The translations under genes were made by a program, and so were the position numbers. 54,484 bases of DNA, from positions 1 through 54,484 of the forward strand of contig JAJQEO010000037.1 in assembly GCA_021201665.1 (NCBI GenBank). Reading direction: 5' to 3'. The stretch is from Lachnospiraceae bacterium (lineage in GTDB: Bacteria; Bacillota; Clostridia; Lachnospirales; Lachnospiraceae). The stretch's first letter is position 1, and every line of letters begins with the position of its first letter. Below are positions 42,690 through 48,969 of the stretch, piece after piece. The notes beneath the pieces were generated by a model, which had not been told where the DNA came from, searched no databases, and saw nothing but the letters and a program-made list of their open reading frames with translations.

Positions 42690-42772
42690 CCTGTCACCCG
42701 TATGCCTTCACTTTTACCCGTATGCCTTCACTTTTACCCGCATGCCGCCACTTTTACCCGCATGCCGTCAGC
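42690..42772. repeat. 20-bp tandem repeat at the 3' end of nagA
   Basis: CCCGTATGCCTTCACTTTTA-type units repeat four times with a 20-bp period. The unit nearest nagA contains its last codons and stop (ACG GCA TGC GGG TAA on the minus strand), so the array seems to be amplified from the gene's own 3' end. Confidence 0.8.
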
Positions 42773-44094
42773 TTTCCCTTATGCATCCTGTATTTGATTT
42801 CCAGATCTTCATTCACAAAAAGAATATTTGCATAGCAGCCCGGACGCAGGCTTCCATACTCCTGGTCGATGCCGATGCACCTGGCGGGGTTTACGGCGGC
42901 CGCTTTCAGGGCGCTTCCAAGAGGAATCCCCATGGAAAGCACAGCCGTGCGGAAGCAGTCCATCAGGTTCGTCGCGCTGCCGGCAATCGTTCCGGGATCC
43001 TGCGTCAGAACCGCCCGGTTCCCGGTCACGGTAACATCCTGTCCGCCCAGGGTGTACTGCCCGTCGGGCAGTCCGGTTGCCATCATGCTGTCGCTGATCA
43101 GGATGACCCGGTCATCCCCAAACAGCTGAAAGGTCATGCGGACAACTGCCGGATGAATGTGAATCCCATCAGCAATCAGCTCCACATCTGCTCCTGCTTC
43201 CCATGCGGCCACGATCGGTCCCGGCATCCGGTGCGTGATCCCAGGCATCGCGTTGTACAGATGCGTCATATGAGAAGCCCCCGCGCCGAACGCTTCCTTC
43301 GCAGTCTCGTAATCCGCGCAGGTATGGGCAAGTGATAATACGACCTGTCCCTTCAGCTCCCGGATCATCTCCATTGCCCCCGGTTCTTCCGGCGCAAGAT
43401 CGCAAAGCTTAAAAAGCCCGTTTGCTTCCTTTTGCAGACGGAGAAATATTTTTGCGTCCGGCCGATGGACAAATGCCTCATTCTGCGCGCCTTTCTTCTT
43501 CCGGCTGATAAACGGTCCTTCCATATTGATACCGACCAGATCCGCACCCTCCCGGTTTCTATGAGCCGCAGCCGTCCTGGCAATGCGGGTGAGCGTTTCT
43601 TCCCCATATGTCATGGTAGCCGGGCAGATCGCGCCGATTCCCTGCCTCAGCTCATACGCCGCAATTTTTGAAATGGTCTCCTCCGTCCCGTCGCAGAAAT
43701 CAACCCCATCGCAACCGTGAAAATGGATATCTACCAGCATGGGAATTGCTTTCAGGCTGCCGCAATCCATCTGCAGCCTCCGGAGCGTCTGTATTTCTTT
43801 CTCTGTCATCGCGTTATAGGAGAAACCGTCGTTTTTATCGTTTTCGTTTCTTCCGTTTCTTCCGTTTCTTTTGCCTCTTTCGCTTTTTTCGTATCTTTCG
43901 TATCTTTCGCTTTTTTCGTATCCTTCGTATCTTTCGTCTCTTTCGCTTTTTTCGTATCTTTCCTCTCTTTCGCTTTTTTCGTATCTTTCATAATCGGAGC
44001 TTTCTGCGATCCGCTCTCCCAGAACGCAGATATCTTTCTTCACAAAGCTTCCGTTTTCTTCAAATACCTCTACATCTCTGATTCTCATATCCAT
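42754..44094 (-). CDS. nagA: N-acetylglucosamine-6-phosphate deacetylase with low-complexity insertion
   Basis: The enzyme hydrolyses GlcNAc-6-phosphate to glucosamine-6-phosphate and acetate. Metal and catalytic motifs are intact: VDIHFHGCDG, GINMEGPF, SLAHTCADYE, HLYNAMPGI and ISDSMMATGLPDG with the catalytic Asp. The protein is 446 residues, about 60 more than usual, because residues 33-89 are a charged repeat (DYERYEKSEREERYEKSERD then RYEGYEKSERYERYEKSERG and NGRNGRNENDKND) placed between the N-terminal beta strands and the barrel. AAAGGACAGGAATCTGC supports the ATG at 44094. No nagB or GlcNAc transporter is nearby. It was part of the segment duplicated at 300-900. Confidence 0.93.
   Translation of the reverse strand: MDMRIRDVEVFEENGSFVKKDICVLGERIAESSDYERYEKSEREERYEKSERDERYEGYEKSERYERYEKSERGKRNGRNGRNENDKNDGFSYNAMTEKEIQTLRRLQMDCGSLKAIPMLVDIHFHGCDGVDFCDGTEETISKIAAYELRQGIGAICPATMTYGEETLTRIARTAAAHRNREGADLVGINMEGPFISRKKKGAQNEAFVHRPDAKIFLRLQKEANGLFKLCDLAPEEPGAMEMIRELKGQVVLSLAHTCADYETAKEAFGAGASHMTHLYNAMPGITHRMPGPIVAAWEAGADVELIADGIHIHPAVVRMTFQLFGDDRVILISDSMMATGLPDGQYTLGGQDVTVTGNRAVLTQDPGTIAGSATNLMDCFRTAVLSMGIPLGSALKAAAVNPARCIGIDQEYGSLRPGCYANILFVNEDLEIKYRMHKGKLTACG
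43828..43998 (-). repeat. Coding low-complexity repeat inside nagA
   Basis: The plus strand is a run of TCGTATCTTTCG, CTTTTTTCG and CCGTTTCTT-type units, on the coding strand mostly GAAAGATACGAAAAAAGC. The unit lengths (9, 12, 15, 27 bp) keep the frame open. Codons are almost all GAA, AGA, TAC and AAA. Confidence 0.85.
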
Positions 44095-44192
44095 GCAGAT
44101 TCCTGTCCTTTTTTCCTGACCCTGACAAGCCGGAGTCAAAATTCTGCCATTTTTCGCGGGAAATCATTCTTAAGTTCCTAATCCGGGCAGAC

Positions 44193-45784: not shown

Positions 45785-46300
45785 TCATTCATATTCCCCG
45801 AGCCACCGCATGCTTGTCTGAAGCACGGCGGCTTCTTTTTTCAGGCTTTCCGGCACATCCAGGATCCGCTGGTTTTTGCTGCCGCGAAAGTTCAGCTCGA
45901 GGCTTTTCTCTTTCATCAGGAAGGGGCCGTCGACCAGCACGTCGATCGTTTCCAGCAGCTGGCGCTGCTCCCTGGTTCCTTCCAGAAGCTGCTCAAACAG
46001 AAAGCCTGTGTAGGCCGCGATTTCATACCCGTCCGCTTTCAGCAGTCTGCCAAGCCTGGCGAATTCTCCCGCCTGCGCAAATGGCTCTCCGCCTGAAAAG
46101 GTGACTCCGCAGACGAGTGGGTTTTGCCGGATGATTTGGGCGACTGCTTCCGGCTCCATCGGCGTGCCGGTGCCGAAGGGCCAGGTCTCCGGGTTCTGGC
46201 AGCCGGGACAGTGGTGCGGACAGCCCTGGCAGAAAATCGTCGTGCGAATCCCCGGGCCGTCCACTATGCTGTCACTGACAATACCGGCAAGGTCAAGCAT
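45785..46300 (-). CDS. nrdG: Anaerobic RNR-activating protein (radical SAM)
   Basis: The 171-residue enzyme uses a 4Fe-4S cluster and S-adenosylmethionine to place the glycyl radical on NrdD. The cluster motif is CPHHCPGC, preceded by IVDGPGIRTTIFCQG; the SAM-binding FSGGEPF follows. MLDLAGIVSDSIVDG is the normal N-terminus. It overlaps the small glycyl-radical-domain gene by 8 bp and is the third gene of the class III RNR operon. Its substrate glycine is unusually encoded on that small gene rather than in nrdD itself. Confidence 0.96.
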   Translation of the reverse strand: MLDLAGIVSDSIVDGPGIRTTIFCQGCPHHCPGCQNPETWPFGTGTPMEPEAVAQIIRQNPLVCGVTFSGGEPFAQAGEFARLGRLLKADGYEIAAYTGFLFEQLLEGTREQRQLLETIDVLVDGPFLMKEKSLELNFRGSKNQRILDVPESLKKEAAVLQTSMRWLGEYE

Positions 46301-46454
46301 GAGAGATCCCGTGCTTTACTCTGTCACGCTCTTCGGCACGCTTCGCGTCATTCCACTTGTCCATCGTCCCTACAAGGTAGCCTGTGATGCGGCGGATCCG
46401 CTCAAAGCCGACCCCCTGCCCCATTTTTTCTTCTACGTTTACTTTTACTGACAT
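46293..46454 (-). CDS. Separately encoded glycyl-radical domain of anaerobic RNR
   Basis: The 53-residue protein contains RIRRITGYLVGTMDKWN and ends AKRAEERDRVKHGISHA. In class III RNRs 'R(V/I)(C/T)GYL' followed by N.GK/AKR.E...RVKH is the C-terminal glycyl-radical loop of NrdD. Here the nrdD gene stops 230 bp earlier, without it. AAAGGAGACCAGGATT precedes the ATG at 46454, so it has its own translation start; an upstream open frame from a TTG at 46694 overlaps the nrdD stop in the +1 frame. The sequence from 46455 to 46690 is repetitive. The radical domain would have to assemble with NrdD as a separate subunit. Family assignment is certain; function as a split enzyme is inference. Confidence 0.85.
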   Translation of the reverse strand: MSVKVNVEEKMGQGVGFERIRRITGYLVGTMDKWNDAKRAEERDRVKHGISHA

Positions 46455-46686
46455 AATCCTGGTCTCCTTTCTTTTTCTTTTTCCTACTTTTATTTTCTTT
46501 CTTTCGCCTGTACGACTGTCAGCCGCAAACTGCACCGTCCCCAGGCTAAGTGCCGCTCCATTACTGTTACTCAGAGCCGCATCATTGCAGCCACTTAAGA
46601 CTTTGCCTTCGCAATCAATCAAGACCGTACCTTCGTAATTGCTAAGAGACGCGTCATTGCATTCCCTCAGCACATCATCGCTCCAG
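46455..46686 (-). repeat. Repetitive open spacer between nrdD and the glycyl-radical domain
   Basis: The minus strand stays open in one frame from 46694 to 46454 and encodes CNDASLSNYEGTVLIDCEGK then CNDAALSNSNGAALS: two or more degenerate 45-bp-like units, then a Lys/Arg-rich stretch (ERKKIKVGKRKRKET). It resembles no protein I know. Confidence 0.6.
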
Positions 46687-48969
46687 TCACTCAATCCCCT
46701 GGAATGCCGGCATCTCCGGATACATCTTTTTCAGCTCATCGATCCGCTCCGGGGCGATGGATTCGCCCTCGCGGCGGCCGCAGCGCGGGCACACGTCCCC
46801 GATCACGCCTACATAGCCGCAGATGGGATCGCGGTCTACCGGATGGTTGATGCTGCCGTAGCCGACGCCGCAGTCATGCATCCAGCGCACGACCGTCTCA
46901 AAGGCTTCTACATTCTTTGTCGTGTCGCCGTCCAGCTCCACGTAGCTGATATGCCCGGCGTTGCAGAGCGCATGGTACGGCGCCTCCAGCCGTATTTTAT
47001 CATAGGCAGAGATCGGATACCAGACCGGAATATGAAAACTGTTCGTATAGTATTCGCGGTCTGTGACTCCGGGAATCCTGCCGTAGCGCTTCTGGTCGAT
47101 TCGGATGAAGCGTCCGGAAAGACCCTCCGCCGGGGTCGCCAGAAGTGTGACATTCATCTGCAGCTCCTGCGACTTCCGGTCGCAGAAATCACGCATATGG
47201 CTGATGATCGCCAGGCCTTTTTCCTGCATCTCTTCGCTCTCGCCGTGATGGCGCCCGTAGAGTGCCGTGAGAGTTTCCGCGAGGCCAATGAATCCGATCG
47301 AAAGCGTCCCATGCTTCAAGACCTCGCGGAGGCTGTCTCTCGGGCCCAGCTTATCGGAGTCCAGCCAGATGCCCTGTCCCATCAGGAAGGGGAAATTGTA
47401 GACACATTTATCTGCCTGAATCTCAAACCGGTCCAGCAGCTGCTGCATCGTGAGCTCCAGCATCTGATCCAGCTTTTCATAAAAGATCTTTTCATTTTTT
47501 TCACTTTCAATCGCCAGCCGCGGCAGGTTGATCGACGTAAAGGAAAGATTTCCGCGCGAATAGGCGATCTCTCTGGTCGGGTCGTAGACATTTCCCATGA
47601 CGCGGGTGCGGCAACCCATGGTCGCCACCTCCGTCTCCGGGTGGCCCGGTTTATAGTATTTAATATTATACGGCGCGTCCAGAAAGACAAAATTCGGAAA
47701 CAGCCGCTTGGCGCTGACCTTGCAGCTTAAGCGGAAGAGGTCGTAATTCGGATCCCCTTCGTTGTAATTAACGCCCTCTTTAACCTTAAAAATATGGATC
47801 GGGAAAATGCAGGTCTCGCCATGTCCGAGTCCCGCGTCCAGCGCCAGCAGCACGTTGCGGATCGCCATGCGGCCTTCCGGCGTGGTGTCCGTGCCATAAT
47901 TAATCGATGAAAAAGGTGTCTGCGCGCCTGCCCGGGAGTGCATGGTGTTCAGGTTGTGTACGAAGCCCTCCATGGCCTGATAGGTATCGCGGTCCGTCGC
48001 CCGCAGTGCTCTCTTCCGGGCGCGTTTCGTCACCCAGGCGGCCTCCTCTGCCGATAAAGACATCGAGTCCTGAATTGCTGCCGCCACAGCCTGATCGAAT
48101 TCCGGACGATTCTCCAGCCGCACCGTCTCGCCGGTGGTCTCCTCCGCGATCTTCAGCGCAGCCTTCATCTCCTCCAGAACATCATCCAGAGCCTTCAGAT
48201 CCTCGACCGCCAGCGCAAGCATGCGTGTAAACTCTTTGCGGAACGTCTTTATGATGCCCTCGGCCATCGCATAGTCAAAATTCGGAATCGACTGTCCCCC
48301 GTGCTGGTCGTTCTGATTCGACTGAATAGCAATCGCCGCCAGCGCGGTGTAACTCTGAATGCTCTGCGGCTCCCGCAGATAGCCGTGCCCGGTCGAAAAT
48401 CCGCCGTGAAACAGCTTCAGAATATCGATCTGGCAGCAGGTCGTGGTCAGGGAATAAAAGTCAAAATCATGGATATGGATATCTCCCTCCCGGTAAGCCT
48501 TCGCGTGCTCCGGGCGCAGCAGGTAAAGCTCATTGTAGGCCTTTGCTCCCGCACTGCCGATCTGCAGCATGCTGCCCATGGCCGTATTTCCGTCGATATT
48601 GGCATTGTCCCGCTTCATATCGCTGATCAGCGCGTCAATGTTCGTAATCTCGTCGATGGTCTTCATCAGAGAGGTGTTGGCCTCCCGCGCGCGGGTACGA
48701 TTCGCACGGTACAGAATATACGCCTTCGCCGAAGCCCCGAACCCATGGTTCATCAGCTGCTGCTCCACCATATCCTGAATATTCTCAATCGTCGGAGACT
48801 CATCGTGAAACGATGCCTCCAGCTCCCGCTGTACATCATTGGCCACCCGTGCCGCGTCCGAGGCGTCTCCCTCCCTCGTCTCCTGCAGCGACTTCAGAAT
48901 CGCCGCCGCGATCTTATTCTGCTCGTAAAGGACGACCCTGCCGTCCCGCTTAATAATACTGTGAATCAT
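46687..48969 (-). CDS. nrdD: Anaerobic ribonucleoside-triphosphate reductase, catalytic subunit lacking the radical loop
   Basis: The 760-residue class III RNR begins with an ATP-cone (MIHSIIKRDGRVVLYEQNKI, DAARVANDVQRELEASF), followed by the ten-stranded barrel (HIHDFDFYSLTTTCCQIDIL, QNDQHGGQSIPNFDYAMAEG, GCRTRVMGN). Near the end is one zinc half-site, CGYVGVIGDVCPRCGR. Normally a glycyl-radical segment follows; here the protein ends GESIAPERIDELKKMYPEMP then AFQGIE. The radical segment is on the next gene. GGAAGGATTTTTTGC supports the ATG at 48969. The operon has tandem NrdR boxes. It makes dNTPs under anaerobic conditions. Confidence 0.95.
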   Translation of the reverse strand: MIHSIIKRDGRVVLYEQNKIAAAILKSLQETREGDASDAARVANDVQRELEASFHDESPTIENIQDMVEQQLMNHGFGASAKAYILYRANRTRAREANTSLMKTIDEITNIDALISDMKRDNANIDGNTAMGSMLQIGSAGAKAYNELYLLRPEHAKAYREGDIHIHDFDFYSLTTTCCQIDILKLFHGGFSTGHGYLREPQSIQSYTALAAIAIQSNQNDQHGGQSIPNFDYAMAEGIIKTFRKEFTRMLALAVEDLKALDDVLEEMKAALKIAEETTGETVRLENRPEFDQAVAAAIQDSMSLSAEEAAWVTKRARKRALRATDRDTYQAMEGFVHNLNTMHSRAGAQTPFSSINYGTDTTPEGRMAIRNVLLALDAGLGHGETCIFPIHIFKVKEGVNYNEGDPNYDLFRLSCKVSAKRLFPNFVFLDAPYNIKYYKPGHPETEVATMGCRTRVMGNVYDPTREIAYSRGNLSFTSINLPRLAIESEKNEKIFYEKLDQMLELTMQQLLDRFEIQADKCVYNFPFLMGQGIWLDSDKLGPRDSLREVLKHGTLSIGFIGLAETLTALYGRHHGESEEMQEKGLAIISHMRDFCDRKSQELQMNVTLLATPAEGLSGRFIRIDQKRYGRIPGVTDREYYTNSFHIPVWYPISAYDKIRLEAPYHALCNAGHISYVELDGDTTKNVEAFETVVRWMHDCGVGYGSINHPVDRDPICGYVGVIGDVCPRCGRREGESIAPERIDELKKMYPEMPAFQGIE

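Follow-up and report, generated by a model that had tools for sequence, protein, structure and literature searches.

A class III ribonucleotide reductase whose glycyl-radical domain lies on a separate gene and probably acts as a trans-acting subunit

Class III ribonucleotide reductases (RNRs) are oxygen-sensitive enzymes that make DNA building blocks. We analyzed a stretch of 54,484 nucleotides from a Lachnospiraceae bacterium (assembly GCA_021201665.1, contig JAJQEO010000037.1; hereafter the window), in which the class III gene nrdD stops short of the glycyl-radical domain (GRD), and the missing domain is encoded by a small gene of its own, named grd here, which lies between nrdD and the activase gene nrdG. 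Judged from sequence, the locus very probably encodes a functional two-polypeptide class III RNR, in which a small protein acting in trans would carry the glycyl radical after activation by NrdG. The separate genes, the start site of the small one, its strict conservation and the presence of a split NrdD as the sole detected RNR in some genomes carry this reading, and sequence comparison reveals the same division in numerous relatives from the gut.

The features of the locus are collected in Table 1. The preliminary description of this DNA had claimed that nrdD ends before the glycyl-radical loop and that the loop is encoded downstream as a 53-residue protein with its own Shine-Dalgarno (SD) sequence, overlapping nrdG, and both claims were confirmed. 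The Pfam NRDD model matches the large open reading frame (ORF) at model positions 1–531 of 562 (604.2 bits against a cut-off of 26.2) and the small ORF at positions 533–562 of 562 (31.4 bits, same cut-off). The nrdD product also matches the Pfam ATP-cone at 80.8 bits and NCBIfam PRK07111 at 1069 bits, and the nrdG product matches TIGR02491 NrdG at 135 bits, above the cut-off of 126.1. The nrdD stop codon (46687–46689) and the grd ATG (46452–46454) are separated by 232 nt, with GGTCTCCTTT (reverse complement AAAGGAGACC) ahead of grd at 46461–46470, and the grd stop at 46293 produces an 8-nt overlap with nrdG, whose ATG is at 46300. Aligned to P. copri NrdD (chain 8p23_A), the large protein extends through residue 706 and the small protein resumes at 707, with Gly25 of grd corresponding to radical Gly711 (numbering of PMC11226230; here and below, the literature is cited from excerpts of the papers named). 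The radical glycine loop is absent from the NrdD polypeptide and present in the system on the separate ORF. The MGCR finger-loop motif, whose cysteine we take to be the thiyl cysteine from alignment to the T4 enzyme, was found in 97/97 split NrdD ORFs, and the exact strings TCC and ATPAE in 71/97 and 82/97, respectively (duplicates included).

The small frame stays open upstream, past the nrdD stop, to a TTG at 46694, and NRDD is the sole Pfam family at E ≤ 0.001 in this longer form of 133 aa. A TTG-started product of 133 aa was rejected and the ATG preferred as the start of grd, because the spacers of five genus relatives hold stops or other frames. A chance ORF was rejected on the profile scores and the selection test given below; the small ORF matched both Pfam NRDD and, in a search of its own genome, a GRD profile (A1, E = 4.8e-33; the profile includes the window sequence), and is therefore not a product of chance. 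This profile misses divergent fused GRDs, an example being genus genome G010, without a GRD-profile match despite two fused NrdDs by PF13597, and the tallies obtained with it are not rates.

A search of 47 genomes of the window's genus with the PF13597 profile revealed a two-piece NrdD in six of them (G000, G008, G012, G013, G016 and G017), with spacers of different lengths. Relatives of the window NrdD were also drawn from genome contigs, and the best 80 of 353 were kept; one of the six search patterns sits in the NrdD tail, so that the list favours split forms and indicates recurrence, not prevalence. A separate downstream GRD ORF was present in 79/80 of these relatives, with the NrdD match reaching within two residues of its end, and the 80th (L096) is truncated by the contig end. 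Species and genera such as Gemmiger, Fournierella, Ruthenibacterium, Faecalimonas umbilicata and Clostridium fimetarium are among the named split relatives. Four of the 80 (L051–L054) are contigs of the genus genomes and were omitted as duplicates from the spacer statistics, which cover 81 loci, with spacers between nrdD and the GRD gene ranging from 11 to 669 nt (median 49). The start codons of the relatives' GRD genes were picked partly by a good SD, and no SD tally was drawn from them. In the 32-codon GRD core, the 15 genus pairs differ by 4 to 15 nucleotide changes and by no amino-acid change (pN = 0), and pN/pS is 0.044 over 82 rows when read in frame, compared with at least 0.13 in each of the remaining five frames (40 rows). 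The GRD core is under purifying selection.

These results bear on the possibility that a single gene was broken by an indel, whether through assembly error, frameshift or pseudogene formation. The open small frame running past the nrdD stop in the window and the position of the locus on a draft contig would suit such an origin, the likelihood of which is practically negligible given the split in five further genus genomes and 79/80 best relatives, the pN of zero, the SD of grd itself and the conserved tail behind the zinc knuckle. The preliminary description had already disfavoured an assembly error, which is borne out by the recurrence in independently assembled genomes, and its check for relatives reading through in one frame was run, revealing that the two parts occupy all three relative frames (0, 1 and 2 in 41, 19 and 21 of the 81 loci). 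At another locus (L102:2941–3553), two different minimal GRD genes lie 3′ of one split nrdD.

The arrangement of the genes in some relatives is not compatible with one joined chain. The order is reversed on L258, a viral contig (record G842) with the GRD gene upstream of nrdD, and in family f126 the GRD is unlinked from a GRD-less nrdD in 6/10 genomes, with nrdG adjoining the GRD in all six. In G1006, a single contig of 2.07 Mb, the grd-nrdG pair lies 429 kb from NrdD, with no PF13597 match besides these two, and in G1025, G1109, G867, G1062 and G962 NrdD and GRD are on different contigs. The four other f126 genomes (G1044, G984, G1094 and G1124) have NrdD and GRD linked, with G1124 harboring two NrdDs (profile match ends at 540 and 532 of 562; the end of the first was read directly) and one GRD, a ratio that likewise argues against a joined product. 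A single product is therefore impossible in the relatives with reversed order (L258) or unlinked genes (G1006), and the earlier proposal of an NrdD working with a radical subunit activated by NrdG gains support from the recurrence and from these arrangements. Joining of both parts through read-through, frameshifting or ribosome bypass is formally possible at 26 loci, where the parts share a frame and only one stop codon intervenes (TAA at 23 of these loci), the distance often being just 12 nt; as an explanation of the split it is most improbable, since 40/81 loci are out of frame, spacers reach 669 nt, the GRD gene comes first in L258, and the genes are unlinked in G1006 and on other contigs in the five genomes named.

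Splicing of an intron or a split intein might also rejoin the parts, and introns, inteins and homing endonucleases are known to split phage RNR genes (PMC3653736). Rfam searches gave no match up to E = 1 in positions 46200–46900 of the window, spacer included, and none in nine loci at gathering scores; no RNA element or intron was found in the spacer, and spacers of 11–12 nt are too small. About 16 residues precede the GRD core, which is too short for an intein half, and splicing is considered extremely improbable. In genome G901 (L292 and L308), nrdD ends with FERIHRITE right before the radical glycine and a GRD gene of ~90 aa lies on another contig; the in-cis domain may have been lost recently there, or the sequence may be in error.

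The RNR complement was examined in 25 split-NrdD genomes with PF13597 and PF02867, and in 12 genomes with TIGR02505 and PF00268. Profiles covering all three classes detected one split NrdD and no other RNR in G620, G636, G678, G775, G812 and G814, of which the first four are 99% complete and the last two come with no completeness figure. TIGR02505 and PF00268 had 0 matches each in the 12 genomes tested, these six included. A second RNR was found elsewhere, namely a second NrdD in C. fimetarium, a class II RNR in Gemmiger and Fournierella, and both in Faecalimonas, and PF02867 (class I/II catalytic domain) had no match in the window's own genome. In families f126 and f184, PF02867 was absent from 11/15 genomes, and a monomeric class II RNR may exist there, because PF02867 was silent on a Synechococcus control for which TIGR02505 was positive.

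Free radical domains of a second type, ~90 aa in length with a conserved N-terminal domain ahead of the same loop, were also obtained. They lie between a complete fused nrdD and nrdG in L163–L167, and 19 others (L154–L161, L168–L170 and L172–L179) have no NrdD in the fetched locus, with a fused GRD present in 15 of these genomes. The stand-alone GRDs of ~90 aa are candidate NrdD spare parts. Loci L163–L167 and the precedent of GrcA/YfiD, which serves oxygen-cleaved pyruvate formate-lyase (PFL) (PMC8683613), would suit the view that the small protein of the split loci is likewise a repair part only and no constitutive subunit. This is highly unlikely for the split loci, where the core lacks any GRD that could be lost and where six tested genomes hold no other RNR that could be found, and a spare-part role is likely for the cases with a fused and an extra GRD.

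Two further forms of NrdD were noticed. In L196 and L197 (G604 and G707), an NrdD-like paralogue has neither zinc knuckle nor GRD and is overlapped at its end by an NrdG-like ORF, and both genomes also hold a split NrdD. Many genus genomes have a second NrdD, represented by loci L023–L032, L038–L048 and L050; the majority of these ORFs end ..APTLVVLHDG..KYVNASNIKRYV, and the C-terminal stretch looks like a thioredoxin/glutaredoxin-type domain, judged by eye.

The preliminary description erred in assigning a single zinc half-site to nrdD, as the three-Cys pattern of its knuckle CGY..CPRC matches that of fused sister NrdDs such as L180, L183 and L185. The zinc region is therefore complete relative to these sisters; P. 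copri NrdD has a fourth Cys. The knuckle pattern ends CPRCGR in 97/97 split ORFs, and the residues after its CxxC number 30 in 91/97 and 31, 32 or 45 in the remaining six (duplicates included in both counts), compared with a linker of 8–15 residues from CxxC to loop in fused NrdDs (26 ORFs). This tail shows a conserved helix-like pattern, S.E.L.ELRK.YP..P.F, and is similar in the window's clade, f75 and f72 (L141, L142, L146 and L147), which are separated in the core tree. In split NrdDs resembling that of the window, the tail perhaps serves to dock the radical subunit. It was rejected as a feature marking split NrdDs in general, because the NrdDs of f184 have a longer, different C-terminus, and the f126 and phage L232 proteins end shortly after the knuckle, with an extra N-terminal domain in their GRDs. 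One sequence, L151, carries ~90 extra residues between the NrdD zinc knuckle and the radical loop, all in one frame.

A single clade of split enzymes was rejected by the approximately unbiased (AU) test (p 7e-65; 24 split cores among 44, quick tree), a 56-row tree needs nine changes between split and fused forms, and the split phage L232 groups among its fused phage relatives L243 and L263. From the AU test on 44 cores and the 56-row tree, it can be deduced that detachment, re-attachment or exchange of the radical domain took place more than once. Recurrent splitting, recurrent re-fusion and gene exchange are indistinguishable here, with similar tails found despite their separation in the tree.

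In the mechanism that we propose, the large NrdD core (ATP-cone, barrel with thiyl cysteine and zinc knuckle) would have no radical of its own and a protein of ~50 residues would bear the radical glycine. NrdG would put the glycyl radical on the small protein, either free or already core-bound, and the small protein would enter, or stay permanently in, the barrel slot that is held by the C-terminal loop in fused NrdD. The loop would lie beside the MGCR cysteine and hand over the radical to it, supporting many turnovers. Once cleaved by oxygen, a free radical subunit could be swapped cheaply, and a single GRD-NrdG pair could supply two or more NrdDs. Complex formation, the order of activation and docking are the parts of this scheme that we infer.

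Several observations weigh against such a two-polypeptide enzyme. Most of the genomes involved are metagenome-assembled genomes or drafts. A complete, more distant NrdD is present in the window's own genome and in four same-genus split genomes checked, and the split enzyme therefore need not be essential in the former. The split NrdDs of f126, f184 and phage L232 lack the 30-residue tail, and docking must therefore work otherwise there. The AlphaFold read-through model (A2; mean predicted local distance difference test score, pLDDT, 69.9; predicted template modelling score, pTM, 0.64) recovered the NrdD fold only, with a pLDDT of ~35–62 over the GRD, so that docking is not shown; the A3 model (pLDDT 55) is unusable, and neither counts as docking evidence.

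The window system shares the NRDD barrel, MGCR motif, zinc knuckle and NrdG partner with the class III NrdDs of P. copri (8P23), S. thermophilus (9D3X) and phage T4 (1H78), the ATP-cone with the first two, and the RITGYLVG loop of grd with P. copri NrdD. It differs from them in that the radical domain is on its own gene and a 30-residue tail replaces the linker of 8–15 residues. GrcA/YfiD of E. coli and Y06I of T4 are likewise small, free glycyl-radical domains serving a glycyl-radical enzyme (GRE) core without a functional one (PMC8683613). However, GrcA/YfiD is a PFL-specific repair protein, whereas the window grd has an NrdD-type loop, is encoded with nrdG and would be needed from the start; the partner of GrcA/YfiD has a cleavable GRD of its own, as do the fused-plus-extra loci L163–L167, and split NrdD has none. 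Among RNRs, the split class II NrdJa/NrdJb is also distributed over two genes, but belongs to another RNR class, and NrdJb holds IscU-like and zinc-finger domains and no radical (PMC9669993). In Aeromonas phage phiAS4 and Lactococcus phage 949, nrdD is likewise in pieces, but the excerpt of PMC3653736 attributes these to broken regions, introns and traces of inteins or homing endonuclease genes, and describes no conserved free radical subunit.

In the open-licence literature searched (excerpts, also of PMC12288474, PMC4390871, PMC2795772, PMC3019208, PMC12662201, PMC11528403 and PMC12386605), class III RNRs have the radical glycine in the catalytic chain, and no cellular NrdD is reported to be naturally divided at its radical domain, an earlier mention in subscription papers or database notes being possible; here the glycine is on a separate protein of ~5–6 kDa. 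An RNR survey excluded sequences of <400 residues, and surveys with such a floor would miss the small radical subunit (PMC9531940, in excerpt). The split offers a natural system separating radical installation from the 85-kDa core, which could bring within reach the substrate of NrdG (free domain or complex), subunit exchange after oxygen damage, and gating by the ATP-cone. T4 Y06I and E. coli YfiD are the only validated spare parts according to the excerpt of PMC8683613, whose authors speculate on others, and the free GRDs may provide candidates of this kind for GREs other than PFL. We tentatively suggest, at somewhat less than even confidence, that the NrdD GRD might be a general exchangeable radical subunit, with a GRD-NrdG pair serving an unlinked NrdD or two NrdDs (G1124, on profile coverage) and phages of anaerobes encoding nothing but the ~50-aa subunit of the enzyme, with which they would charge, renew or take over the host RNR while infecting.

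Viral contigs were mined with the GRD profile, and the best 80 of 236 relatives together with five further loci yielded 83 GRD ORFs, with a few contigs counted twice. These comprise 62 without NrdD in the locus (examples among L205–L284 being L211, L218, L226, L231 and L245), 12 fused, six downstream of NrdD, one upstream and two others. Whole-record searches of 29 viral records, which may be fragments, found no NrdD core in 27, the remaining two being the split phages L258 and L232. Such a minimal phage gene may act on the host supply of deoxynucleoside triphosphates. The split genome G664 contains two further GRDs, L144, with an endolysin-like amidase, a tail-fibre-like ORF and a DNA methyltransferase as neighbours, and L145, with a tail-fibre-like ORF; a prophage origin is likely for L144 and less sure for L145. 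In Eggerthella phage EL753P1 (L131), nrdD has a large insert and no GRD, and a downstream GRD-like sequence is spread over two frames beneath a coding sequence annotated as hypothetical.

Table 1. Features of the split nrdD locus in the window.
Feature	Coordinates	Strand	Basis or content
nrdD core gene, 760 aa, ATG at 48969	46687..48969	-	ATP-cone, NRDD barrel and zinc knuckle; without glycyl-radical domain
Zinc knuckle CGYVGVIGDVCPRC	46780..46821	-	Sequence
30-residue NrdD C-terminal tail; proposed to dock the radical subunit in split enzymes of the window's type	46690..46779	-	Length comparison
Intergenic spacer, 232 nt; length and frame not conserved	46455..46686	-	
Shine-Dalgarno sequence AAAGGAGA of the radical-subunit gene	46463..46470	-	Sequence
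grd (name given here), separate glycyl-radical-domain gene, 53 aa	46293..46454	-	NRDD match, conserved in relatives
Glycyl-radical loop RITGYLVG; Gly25 codon 46380-46382	46368..46391	-	Gly25 aligned to P. copri NrdD Gly711
nrdG, radical-SAM activase	45785..46300	-	TIGR02491 profile match

Elsewhere in the window, a low-complexity repeat (RYEKSER-like) was observed at 43806–43991, within the frame of a 461-aa ORF at 42754–44139.

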